DNA from: an uncultured Clostridia bacterium
GTDB taxonomy: Bacteria > Bacillota > Clostridia > Christensenellales > Borkfalkiaceae
Length of the DNA: 64,000 bases
Assembly: GCA_944372575.1 (NCBI GenBank)
Contig: CALVZS010000006.1
Location: 1 to 64,000 of the forward strand
Direction: 5' to 3'
Positions 8,338-13,083 of this stretch are shown one piece after another (the stretch's first letter is position 1; every line of letters begins with the position of its first letter). Below the pieces are notes generated by a model. That model saw only the letters and a list, made by a program, of their open reading frames with translations. It was not told the origin of the DNA and searched no databases. The position numbers were made by a program, and so were the translations under genes.

Positions 8338-8438
8338 ATTCCCGACAATGTCGTATTCTGCCCGTATTTTTCTCCGATCGTGCGTCGGCGAAAGGGGCGT
8401 GTGTGATAAAGTCAAATTCTATCATCCAAGGAGGCTGT

Positions 8439-10058
8439 ATGAACGATTTCGGCAGCCTGCTCCTTGCTATGTCCGGGCTCGAGATCGGTCTGCTCATCGT
8501 CGCCGTCGTTCTGGCGGCGGGCGTTGTGGCGGCTGTTTTCGTGACGCGGGATATCCTGAATAAGCGTGCCAAAAAGAGGTCGGAACAAAAGCTCGACGAG
8601 ACGAGCAAACGCGTGGAGGAGATGCTCTCCGAGGCGCGCGCCCAAAGCAAGCAGCTCAAAAAGGAAGCAATTTTAGAAGCAAAGGAACAGGAACTCAAAC
8701 GCAGGAACGATTTTGAACAGGAGATGAAGGAGAAGCGCGCGGAACAGCAGCGCACGGAGGCCAGACTCTCCAAACAGGAGGATCTCTTAGAGCGCAAGGA
8801 GGCGGAGCTCAACAAAAAGAGCGAGTCCCTGGATGCGCAGAAGGAGGATCTCAGCAAGCGGATCGAGGAAGTATCCAAAAAGCAGGAAGTCCTCTCGCAC
8901 CAGCATGAACTCATGGTGCAGGAACTGGAAAAGGTCGCCCAGCTCACCAAGGAGGAGGCGATGAAACTCCTCACCGATGAGATCCTGGAGGAGACGCGGC
9001 ACGACGTCGCCGTCCAGGTGCGTAACATGGAGCAGCAGGCGAAGGAGGACGCGGATCTCAACGCTAAAAACATCATTACACTCGCCATCCAGCGCTGCGC
9101 CGCCGATCACGCGTCCGAAGCGACCGTGTCCGTGGTGCCGCTGCCCAACGATGACATGAAGGCGCGCATCATCGGCCGCGAGGGCCGCAATATCCGCGCC
9201 ATTGAGAATGCCACGGGCATCGAACTCATCATCGACGACACGCCCGAGGTGGTCATCCTCTCAGGGTTTGACCCCGTCAGAAGGGAGGTTGCTCGGCTCA
9301 CGCTCGAGCGGCTCATCGCCGACGGCCGTATCCATCCCGCCCGCATCGAGGAGACGGTGGAGAAGGTCACAAAGGAACTCGATCAGCAGATCAAGGCGGC
9401 GGGCGAGAACGCCATGTTCGAAGTGGGCATCTTCGGGCTGCATCCCGAGCTCATCAAGCTCATCGGACGGCTCAAGTTCCGTACCAGTTACGGCCAGAAT
9501 GTGTACAAACACTCCATCGAGGTGGCAAATCTTGCCGGACTCATGGCGCAGGAGCTGGGGCTGGACGTCAACTTTGCCAAGCGCGCGGGCCTTCTGCACG
9601 ACATCGGCAAGGCTGCCGACCGGGAACAGGAGGGTACGCACATTCAGATCGGCGCCGACCTTGCCAAGAAGTACAAGGAAAACGCGATGATCGTCAACGC
9701 CATCATGGCGCATCACGGCGATGTGGAACCCAAGACCATTGAAGCCGTCCTCGTGCAGGCGGCGGACGCCATCTCCGGCGCGCGCCCCGGTGCGAGAAGG
9801 GAGACCGGTTCCAACTACGTCAAGCGCCTGGAGAAGCTCGAGGAGATCGCGGCAAGTTTTGCGGGCGTGGAGAAGAGCTATGCCATCCAGGCGGGCAGAG
9901 AGGTGCGCGTCATTGTCAAGCCCGAGCAGATCGACGATGCCCAGGCCATGTTCCTTGCGAAGGACATCGCCAAGAAGATCGAGGCGGAGCTGGAATATCC
10001 CGGCCAGATCAAGGTCAACGTCATCCGCGAATTCCGCAGCGTGGAATACGCAAAATAA
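8439..10058 (+). CDS. rny: Ribonuclease Y
   Basis: A 539-residue membrane-anchored endoribonuclease. One N-terminal helix (about residues 14-37) precedes a long charged coiled coil (about 40-190). A KH RNA-binding domain has [10 protein letters not shown] at about 244-253, and the HD catalytic domain has LLHDIGKA with the His-Asp pair at 387-388. RNase Y starts bulk mRNA decay in Firmicutes. The start at 8439 is set by AAGGAGG four bases upstream; an in-frame ATG at 8403 lacks a site. It is transcribed alone, with a promoter at 8308 and terminators at 10074 and 10114. Confidence 0.97.
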
Positions 10059-10073
10059 AGCAAAACAAGAAAG

Positions 10074-10100
10074 AAGGGTGAAGGGAGCTTCGCCCTTTTT
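10074..10100 (+). terminator. Rho-independent terminator after rny
   Basis: A ten-base stem (10074-10083 with 10088-10097, one G-T pair) has a GGAG loop and ends in a run of five Ts. Confidence 0.85.
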
Positions 10101-10113
10101 CGTTGCCTTTTTA

Positions 10114-10157
10114 TCCGCCGCCGCGGCGCTTCAAGCGCCGCGGCGGCGGAATTTTTT
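10114..10157 (+). terminator. Second, very GC-rich terminator after rny
   Basis: A perfect 18-bp palindrome (10114-10131 with 10133-10150), almost entirely G and C, is followed by ATTTTTT. Together with the preceding hairpin it forms a double terminator. The rest of the 358-base gap between rny and the next gene (10059-10416) holds only the promoter at 10310; I see nothing else in it. Confidence 0.88.
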
Positions 10158-10309
10158 ACGGACAAAAGAGGGGCAAAACCGGGCTCCGCGGCCGTACGAA
10201 AAAAGGGCAGCGTGCAAAGGGGAAGCGGTGTGCGGGAGATTTCGGGCAGTTTTGTCGAAAAATTCCTGTTCTTTTTTCCTTGAAATGAAGAAAAAATGTT
10301 AAAATCCTG

Positions 10310-10340
10310 TTGACAAAGATGGGGGGGGGCGTGATATAAT
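10310..10340 (+). promoter_or_regulatory. Promoter with a G9 homopolymer in the spacer, upstream of the CxxC-repeat gene
   Basis: TTGACA (10310-10315) and TATAAT (10335-10340) are separated by 19 bases, of which 10321-10329 are nine consecutive Gs. Nineteen is longer than the optimal 17. Loss of one or two Gs would bring the elements to 18 or 17 bases, so slippage in the tract could tune or switch the promoter. Confidence 0.75.
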
Positions 10341-10416
10341 AGATCGGCTTCGTTACAAAAAAATTGTAATATTTTTGTCTGGAGCATTTTCATCAAATAT
10401 TTTATCGGGAGTATTT

Positions 10417-12630
10417 ATGAAAGAGACAAATGAGAACGCAAAGACCCCCAAAGCCGGCAAAATCATCCTGATCGCCGTGATCGTCCTTCTGTGTCTTGCG
10501 CTGATCGCCTGCATGGCGGTCATCTTTTTGCACCGGCACACCATGACGCACTTTGAGGCGGAGGCGGCGACCTGCACCGATGCCGGCAATACCGAATACT
10601 GGTACTGCGCCGGATGCGACGCTTATTTTGCCGATGCCCAGGGCAGCGAGCCGATCTCGGCGCAGTCGGTTGAGATCGCGGCGACGGGTCACAGCTGGAC
10701 GGGGGCGTCCTGCACTTCGCCCAGGCATTGCAGCGTGTGCAGTGTTGCGGACGGCGAGGCGCTCGGCCATCTTTTTGAGACATACGTTCCGGACGGCAAC
10801 GCCGCCTGCACGGCGGACGGGACGGAGACGGCGGTATGCGTCCGCTGCGACGAAACGCATACGCGCGTCGATGCCGATACCGCGACGGGACATGCCTATC
10901 TGGAGACCGTCGTGGAGAAGCAGCCGACCTGCGCGGCGACGGGCATTCTCTCGCATATCTGCGAAATCTGCGGCCACGTTGAAAAGGGCATCATCCCCGC
11001 AACGGGCGTCCACAACTGGGAAAGTGCCAGGATCGAGATGCCGGAGGACTGCAGCGATCATCTTGTGGCGCAATATTCCTGCGCAGACTGCGACAAGGTC
11101 TATGAAGTGACGGTGACCGTTTCGGGCGAGCATACATGGCTCACGGACGAGGGAACAATTCTGGAGGGGGCGACCTGCACCGAGGAGGGCGCTTTGCAGA
11201 TCGGTTGCGCGACCTGCGCAGAGACGCTCATCCTTCCCGTTCCCGCGAACGGCGCGCACGTCTGGGAGCAGGAGCAGGTCACCAAGCCCGGCTGTTCCGC
11301 GGCGGGCAAGGCGGAGTATTCCTGCAAGTACTGCGATGAGACGATGGAGACGGAGATCCCCGCGGTCGGCAGCCACCTCTGGGATCTGGAGAACGGCGCC
11401 GTGACGCCCGCCACCGATACGCTTCCCGGAAAGATCGTATATTCCTGCCTGGACTGCAGCGAGTCGTTCGAGGTGACGCTTCCCGCAACGGGCGCGCACG
11501 AATACGGCGAGCCGCAGGTCACCCTTCCCACCTGCACCGCGACGGGCAGCGTGGAGTTTGCCTGCGTTGAGTGCGGCGATTTGCTCACTGCCACCCTTCC
11601 CGCGAGCGGCCATCACTGGACGGACGCGACGTGCATTGCCCCGCAGACGTGTGCGGTCTGCGGCGCCACGCAGGGCGCGGCGGCAGGTCACAGCTGGGGC
11701 GCGTGGGTCGCGTACGGCGGCATCCACCTGCGTGAATGCTCCGTCTGCAGTGCTGCAGACCGGGCGGAACACACCTATGAAGAGGGCGCCTGCACCGTCT
11801 GCGGCGCGGAGGAACCTGTCCCTGAGACCGGAAGCGGTTATACGGTGAACGGGATCACGGTGACCGTGGAGAACGGGGACAACGGCACGCTGTTGGATCC
11901 AGAAAACAATATCCTCTATCCGCAGCTTGTCGGCCTCTGGGTGGCAAGCGGGTACAGCTATGCCACGACCGTCACCGTGCGCGGCGTTGCAACGGAGGAT
12001 TCCGATATTTCTTTTACCCTCTCCGGCGTGGTGAGCGATCGGCTGACCGACCTCTACGTTGCATTGAAGAATGAGGCGGGGGACGTCAGAATCGAGTATC
12101 ATCCCATGCGTTTCCACCTGAGCGTCTATCGGGATGGACAGATGGTTCCCGTCAAATTCTGTGACGGGTGCGAAAATTGCAGCGGGCATACGCATGAGGA
12201 CGACCCGTCCGCCGCGCTCACCTGTCCTCAATGCGATAACTGCTACCTGCGCACGATGTCTGAATTGCAGGAGTATCTTGCTTCGGAGGATAATTTGCTC
12301 AACCTTCGGGTGAGAGCGGGGGAGGCGGTCGACCTTACATTTGAGATCGGCTGGTTGTGGTCGTTTGCCATCGATCCGCCCAAGCAGTTTGAGATCCGCG
12401 GCGAGGACGGAACGCGCTATTACTTTGACAACAACGGAAACAGCGGAAGTTATAAGGGGTATGTCGACGGTATGGATACCGTCCTCGGACAAAATCCGCA
12501 GGATACTGTCCGCGATGTCTACGATATGGACGGAAACCGCTGGTATATGCAGGCGGACGACTTGCAGTATTCATCGGCGATATGCTATATGGGGATCCGG
12601 ATTTCATCCGTATCGGATGAGGAGCCGTAA
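10417..12630 (+). CDS. Membrane-anchored cysteine-rich CxxC-repeat protein of unknown function
   Basis: A 737-residue protein. The N-terminus is charged and followed by one hydrophobic helix (about residues 16-38), which suggests a signal anchor with the rest outside. Residues about 40-470 hold roughly a dozen degenerate units, each with a T/S-C, a CxxC pair (CAGC, CSVC, CVRC, CEIC, CADC, CATC, CKYC, CLDC, CVEC, CAVC, CSVC, CTVC) and a P/A-x-G-x-H linker. Such units are common in large surface proteins of gut Firmicutes, and their role is unknown. The last 260 residues are different: beta-rich, acidic, with two CxxCxxC motifs (CDGCENC and CPQCDNC). ATG 10417 follows a GGGAG site; a TTG at 10375 has none. 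No cell-wall sorting signal is visible. Confidence 0.75.
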   Translation: MKETNENAKTPKAGKIILIAVIVLLCLALIACMAVIFLHRHTMTHFEAEAATCTDAGNTEYWYCAGCDAYFADAQGSEPISAQSVEIAATGHSWTGASCTSPRHCSVCSVADGEALGHLFETYVPDGNAACTADGTETAVCVRCDETHTRVDADTATGHAYLETVVEKQPTCAATGILSHICEICGHVEKGIIPATGVHNWESARIEMPEDCSDHLVAQYSCADCDKVYEVTVTVSGEHTWLTDEGTILEGATCTEEGALQIGCATCAETLILPVPANGAHVWEQEQVTKPGCSAAGKAEYSCKYCDETMETEIPAVGSHLWDLENGAVTPATDTLPGKIVYSCLDCSESFEVTLPATGAHEYGEPQVTLPTCTATGSVEFACVECGDLLTATLPASGHHWTDATCIAPQTCAVCGATQGAAAGHSWGAWVAYGGIHLRECSVCSAADRAEHTYEEGACTVCGAEEPVPETGSGYTVNGITVTVENGDNGTLLDPENNILYPQLVGLWVASGYSYATTVTVRGVATEDSDISFTLSGVVSDRLTDLYVALKNEAGDVRIEYHPMRFHLSVYRDGQMVPVKFCDGCENCSGHTHEDDPSAALTCPQCDNCYLRTMSELQEYLASEDNLLNLRVRAGEAVDLTFEIGWLWSFAIDPPKQFEIRGEDGTRYYFDNNGNSGSYKGYVDGMDTVLGQNPQDTVRDVYDMDGNRWYMQADDLQYSSAICYMGIRISSVSDEEP

Positions 12631-12688: not shown

Positions 12689-12991
12689 TCAGTCGCAGCA
12701 GTTGTAGCAGCGGCGGCTGCGGGAGCTTGAGCAGGCGCAGGCGCTGTTTGCAGACAGGCCGTATTGCCGCGCATAGTAGGCGTCCGTGCAGCACCAGAGG
12801 GAACTGCAGGAGCCGAAACCGCTCCGTTGGCAGGCGTTGCAGAGACTGCAGGAGTTGCCCTGATTGCAGCAGCTGCCGCTGCGGCCCGCAGCGTTGCAGG
12901 AATTGCAGCCGCAGCACCCGCCGGTCGAAAAGAGATTTTCCAGGGCGTGCAGCAAGGGGCAGCCGCAGGAACAGGAATTCATATCGTACAT
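12689..12991 (-). CDS. Small protein with 20 % cysteine, unknown function
   Basis: Reading on the minus strand from ATG 12991 gives 100 residues, of which 20 are Cys, arranged as CSCGC, CCGCNSC, CC, CSLCNAC, CC, CAC and C-N-CC. Ser, Asn and Gly fill most of the rest. I chose ATG 12991 because GAGG lies eight bases upstream; an ATG at 12997 is also possible but sits too close to that site. No signal peptide or membrane helix is evident. It could be a metal-binding or spore-coat-like protein. Low-complexity coding is a risk, but the frame is clean, has a ribosome site and ends just before a terminator. No clear sigma-A promoter was found upstream. Confidence 0.55.
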   Translation of the reverse strand: MYDMNSCSCGCPLLHALENLFSTGGCCGCNSCNAAGRSGSCCNQGNSCSLCNACQRSGFGSCSSLWCCTDAYYARQYGLSANSACACSSSRSRRCYNCCD

Positions 12992-13083
12992 AGGCATTTC
13001 CTCGGTTAGAAAGTTCGGCATATGCCGTCATCCCATCCTATGCGGCGGCGCAAAAAAGTCGTGCAGATTTGCCCGGAAATCGC

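Follow-up and report, generated by a model that had tools for sequence, protein, structure and literature searches.

A poly-G tract in the promoter spacer of a repeat-protein gene as a probable phase-variation switch in an uncultured gut Clostridia bacterium

In the promoter of a gene for a membrane-anchored repeat protein we identified a run of nine Gs that is, with a probability of about 0.83, a simple-sequence contingency element mediating phase variation through slipped-strand changes in spacer length. The promoter is situated in the window, as we term the whole 64,000-nt stretch of DNA that was analysed. The first-pass annotation had named this site a candidate phase-variable switch, and this proposal is supported by genus-wide recurrence of the arrangement, zero matches to reversed control patterns, exported proteins as targets, spacers departing from 17 nt and unequal G numbers in homologous promoters. 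Direct sequence reading confirmed the two hexamers and the intervening 19 nt with nine Gs as described there; the TG of an extended -10 element at 10332-10333 was absent from that description. The features of the locus, in window coordinates, are:

8403-10058: RNase Y gene, upstream neighbour
10071-10150, + strand: two terminator-like hairpins between the RNase Y gene and the promoter unit
10310-10315, + strand: -35 hexamer TTGACA, 6/6 consensus (from the sequence)
10316-10334, + strand: spacer of 19 nt, AAGAT-GGGGGGGGG-CGTGA, where GGGGGGGGG is the G9 run (from the sequence)
10321-10329, + strand: G9 homopolymer, proposed slippage tract (from the sequence and the genus class)
10332-10333, + strand: TG of the extended -10 element, TGA-TATAAT (from the sequence)
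10335-10340, + strand: -10 hexamer TATAAT, 6/6 consensus (from the sequence)
10407-10411, + strand: Shine-Dalgarno-like GGGAG (from the sequence)
10417-12630, + strand: gene under the promoter, 737 aa, with its ATG at 10417, 76 nt past the -10 hexamer

Since the terminator-like hairpins close off the RNase Y gene, the promoter is most simply regarded as the natural one for the gene starting at 10417. The site was overlooked by a promoter scanner because this program tests only spacers of 16-18 nt. No inverted repeats flanking the promoter were found within 10060-10430, where the sole hairpin is the terminator at 10114-10150, and an invertible promoter switch was thereby ruled out. This sets the locus apart from the invertible promoters of gut bacteria such as Bacteroides and Clostridioides difficile, for which passages of PMC11868660 describe stochastic transcriptional switching of surface and signalling genes, driven by recombinase-mediated DNA inversion. 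An operator-like AT palindrome, TTACAA-N5-TTGTAA, is located at 10353-10369, immediately 3’ of the transcription start, which is predicted about 7 nt past 10340; as an operator common to poly-G promoters it was rejected for lack of enrichment (32/239 versus 10/53).

The 737-aa product consists of an N-terminal hydrophobic anchor followed by Cys-rich repeats (CxxC, TCTxxG and similar) and a C-terminal part, which bears out its earlier designation as a membrane-anchored repeat protein. No Pfam family was assigned to it. Residues 39-146 resemble residues 852-967 of the solved IgA protease chain 9qa6 (E 1.2e-9), a likeness taken as a putative shared surface-repeat module in the first part of the protein and as no evidence for protease activity. 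An NCBIfam match to IS1 transposase (E 0.004) was discarded as far below the cut-off. Relatives of the protein have only the repeats in common with it, at no more than about 40% identity over part of the length, very short stretches aside. Convergent with the repeat-protein gene, positions 12689-13021 of the minus strand encode a small protein of 110 aa that is rich in Cys and Ser and has no Pfam family.

The G9 at 10321-10329 is the only tract of G8 or longer in the 64-kb window, and dinucleotide shuffles of this 61% GC sequence gave 4.2 G8 words on average, so that such a tract is unremarkable in itself. The window genome (G000, 1.756 Mb) contains 17 G/C tracts that are 9 nt or longer, and it contains 101 perfect TTGACA-N12..22-TATAAT matches versus 3 for the reversed pattern. 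G9 tracts within the spacers of such perfect hexamers were seen three times, versus about 0.005 expected (P about 3e-8). The feature that exceeds chance is the position of the G9 inside the promoter spacer, not the G9 run alone. The other two perfect sites precede a gene for a collagen-like lipoprotein of 1138 aa (contig C4, tract at C4:76348) and a gene for a very large secreted protein (contig C35, tract at C35:15853), and near-consensus hexamers surround tracts at two further sites, C12:8610 (G10, tract at C12:8621) and C14:5813 (G9, tract at C14:5822).

Genomes of the genus, family and order, one per species, were searched with the pattern TTGACA-N2..8-G7-N0..8-TATAAT, using the reversed pattern as control. 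Matches were obtained in 65 of 101 genomes of the genus, in 30/172 genomes from other genera of the family, distributed over 7 of 17 genera, and in 25/230 genomes from other families of the order, while across the phylum a stricter G8 pattern matched 4 of 397 genomes; the reversed control yielded zero matches at every level. The frequency of the pattern drops as distance from the genus grows. The corresponding poly-C version, with C7 in the pattern, was found in the genus at 13 sites in 10 genomes, all of them C9. Among the matches listed in named genomes were numerous uncultured Clostridia of gut origin (rabbit, deer and others), as well as Candidatus Borkfalkia, Pumilibacter muris, Bacilli MAGs, Candidatus Ancillula and Treponema ruminis; this species listing samples the matches and has no reversed control, and lone matches in it (Chloroflexi and similar) may be due to chance. 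Two matching genomes, G196 from the family of the window and G363 from its order, agree in coordinates and sequence with Ca. Borkfalkia excrementavium and Pumilibacter muris, respectively, which makes the source of the window an uncultured relative of Borkfalkia in the class Clostridia. A phage origin of the poly-G promoters was rejected, as 2.9 million viral contigs contained just 4 matches to the G8 pattern. One genome of the collection (G002) carries 19 near-identical poly-G promoters, almost all G8 and, where checked, preceding related lipoprotein genes, possibly an expanded antigen family.

The genes behind poly-G promoters were sorted with a simple N-terminal classifier of our own, not SignalP, applied to the 111 genus sites for which a gene could be called. 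An export or membrane signal was called in 93/111 products, comprising 70 lipoproteins, 20 signal-peptide or membrane starts and 3 pilins, versus 9 of 30 products of ordinary promoters drawn regardless of function (Fisher P 4e-8). With each protein cluster weighted, exported products still made up about 79%. The most frequent Pfam domains were the Listeria-Bacteroides repeat, the BspA-type leucine-rich repeat, the InlB B-repeat, collagen and the pilin methylation motif.

Poly-G promoters furthermore differ from ordinary ones in their spacing. Among 145 ordinary promoters from two genus genomes, the spacer measured 17 nt in 110 and 16-18 nt in 142, whereas the spacers of 136 poly-G promoters with perfect hexamers ranged from 13 to 21 nt, with 17 nt in 13 and 16-18 nt in 61. 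Their modes lie at 15-16 and 18-19 nt, exactly 17 nt being rarer than either, and the departure from 17 nt holds after protein-cluster weighting (P 1e-18). In a mixed-taxon scan, 17-nt spacers accounted for 11 of 123 poly-G promoters among the matches listed. Tract length in the 136 promoters was 9 in 76 cases, 8 in 28 and 10 in 21, and the gap between the G run and the -10 hexamer, like that between the run and the -35 hexamer, varied from 0 to 8 nt. The scarcity of exact 17-nt spacers fits both with most copies having been sampled in a low state and with an optimum shifted by the geometry of the G tract.

Differences in G number were then found between homologous promoters, defined as pairs with 75% identity or more over a flank of 100 bp or longer. 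The number was unequal in 21 of 34 such pairs. In the pair formed by genomes G001 and G055, flanks that are 99.0% identical over 310 bp enclose G8 in one case and G9 in the other, giving spacers of 16 and 17 nt; the next indel, 24 bp long and in frame, lies about 1.4 kb beyond the promoter, inside the gene. The first-pass annotation had proposed comparing tract lengths in related genomes, and at the level of the class this comparison favours its claim; the window promoter itself has no ortholog among 103 genus genomes. To avoid choosing for G runs, one downstream family was gathered by protein search, although some of its 17 members had been obtained earlier through their G run, making the following proportions only indicative: 11 have G6-G10 tracts in spacers of 14-21 nt between perfect hexamers, two have perfect hexamers with a 16-nt spacer and no G run, and four more distant members are without the run. 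In one Bacilli MAG (CANQZN01), far from the window lineage, promoters that are paralogs and share their flanks, TTGACACC-Gn-TAATATATAAT, carry G8, G9 and G10.

According to the mechanism that we propose, replication slippage would add or remove Gs and thereby set two perfect sigma-A hexamers further apart or closer together, a spacer near 17 nt making a strong promoter. In its assembled state of 19 nt the window promoter is predicted to be weak, aided slightly by the extended -10 element, and loss of one or two Gs (G8 or G7) would bring the spacer to 18 or 17 nt and should raise expression of the membrane-anchored repeat protein. Slippage is the process suggested by the differences between species and between paralogs; we infer in addition that the changes are reversible, that they affect transcription and that the window tract itself varies. 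Promoters of this type form a lineage-wide set preceding genes for lipoproteins, for BspA-type leucine-rich-repeat, Listeria-Bacteroides-repeat and collagen-like proteins and for pilins, so that cells in different surface states would coexist in one population as a mosaic.

The low state predicted at 19 nt is based on two precedents, porA and tp0126. In Neisseria meningitidis, porA has a poly-G tract between -35 and -10, and surface expression is high with 11G, about 2-fold lower with 10G and about 13-fold lower with 9G (PMC3639595). Both porA and the window promoter thus have a G tract in the spacer and a surface protein behind it, but porA is one gene of a Gram-negative pathogen, whereas here a lineage-wide set occurs in uncultured gut Clostridia. 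The tract of Treponema pallidum tp0126, encoding an OmpW homolog, is likewise placed between -35 and -10, and transcription is best with a 17-nt spacer (PMC7864442). The same source reports 7-11 G for the tprL tract of this species, 9 being commonest, which equals the mode of the poly-G promoters studied here; however, the tprL tract overlaps the -10 and not the spacer, and the organism and its proteins are unrelated. Mismatch-repair loss as the cause of length variation was rejected, as MutS1 is present in 31/31 genomes tested. Neisseria likewise switches with mismatch repair intact. The retention of MutS1 in the genus suggests that switching may be slow.

Other explanations of the G run were weighed against slippage. 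The run could be a fixed recognition or structural element, read by a regulator or by RNA polymerase and with a length not meant to vary, in keeping with the modal length of 9 (76/136) and with the non-template strand carrying G far more often than C. We consider such an element improbable, since the distances of the run to -10 and to -35 each vary over 0-8 nt, run length spans 6-11 even within one protein family, a difference of one G separates homologs whose flanks are nearly identical, and poly-C stands in at 13 promoters. The poly-C versions, all being C9, fit better with slippage than with a G-specific binding site. Counting against slippage, poly-G exceeds poly-C in promoter spacers of the genus by about 14:1 although both should slip, a bias of which simple slippage gives no account.

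That 123 of the 136 poly-G spacers are off 17 nt and that the run has been lost in two homologs would also be expected of weak or decaying promoters, poor and unselected, in which off-length spacers involve no switching. This explanation is very improbable, as many loci keep both hexamers perfect with only the spacer length varying, whereas decay would damage the hexamers too, and as the reversed pattern is absent and the targets are strongly biased toward surface proteins. The hexamer argument is partly ascertained by the search, which required perfect hexamers; the protein-led set is free of this requirement and mostly agrees. A chance product of base composition, or an assembly artefact, is hardly credible for the window site: a single G9 is not rare in 64 kb at 61% GC, but three sites against 0.005 expected in the window genome, together with zero reversed-control matches in every genome tested, refute this explanation for the class.

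Slipped-strand variation of spacer length being the favoured explanation, the G9 of the window is probably a slip-prone dial with which individual cells vary their surface. More tentatively, and with slightly less than even odds, we propose a lineage-wide transcriptional contingency regulon in which poly-G spacers set off the 17-nt optimum would control many surface lipoproteins and adhesin-like proteins of Borkfalkia-type gut Clostridia; the usual state would be low, rare slips would raise single antigens, and similar sets would have arisen separately in other gut-associated bacteria (Bacilli MAGs, Ancillula, Treponema ruminis). Transcriptional phase variation through poly-G spacers has been studied mainly in a few pathogens; among these uncultured gut commensals it would be a habit of the whole genus, with no fewer than 130 promoters listed from about 100 species and with lipoproteins and repeat adhesins clearly favoured as targets. 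Open-access papers yielded nothing relevant that links Christensenellales or Borkfalkia with phase variation, and the passages of a recent review retrieved by keyword did not describe homopolymer promoter spacers in Clostridia. The mechanism is of a known kind. For its setting, notable for scale, host lineage and spacers characteristically off 17 nt, no earlier description appears to exist in the open-access literature. The combination of perfect hexamers, a G tract and an off-17 spacer constitutes an organism-independent rule readable in any metagenome, so that the surface heterogeneity of strains of these commensals, and their escape from phages and antibodies, can be measured from reads.

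In Bifidobacterium breve, the tract controlling a pilus reportedly affects the reading frame instead of promoter spacing. Passages of PMC9187656 describe this pilus as governed by a replication-slippage switch, which resembles the window promoter in that G-tract slippage in a Gram-positive gut commensal controls a surface structure. The window genome also contains G9 tracts within genes and may therefore employ reading-frame phase variation as well. Two paralogous secreted proteins (C5:1585 and C13:2419) have a G9 where the signal peptide ends (LLGGGMMF), which makes this tract a candidate for switching the frame in translation. More intragenic G9 tracts are located at C3:73549, C3:118418, C15:3857, C1:10024, C4:39168 and C14:33124, in genes that include those for a ferritin-like protein, a solute-binding lipoprotein and a lipoprotein linker; all of these tracts are in frame in the assembly, encoding GlyGlyGly or an equivalent.
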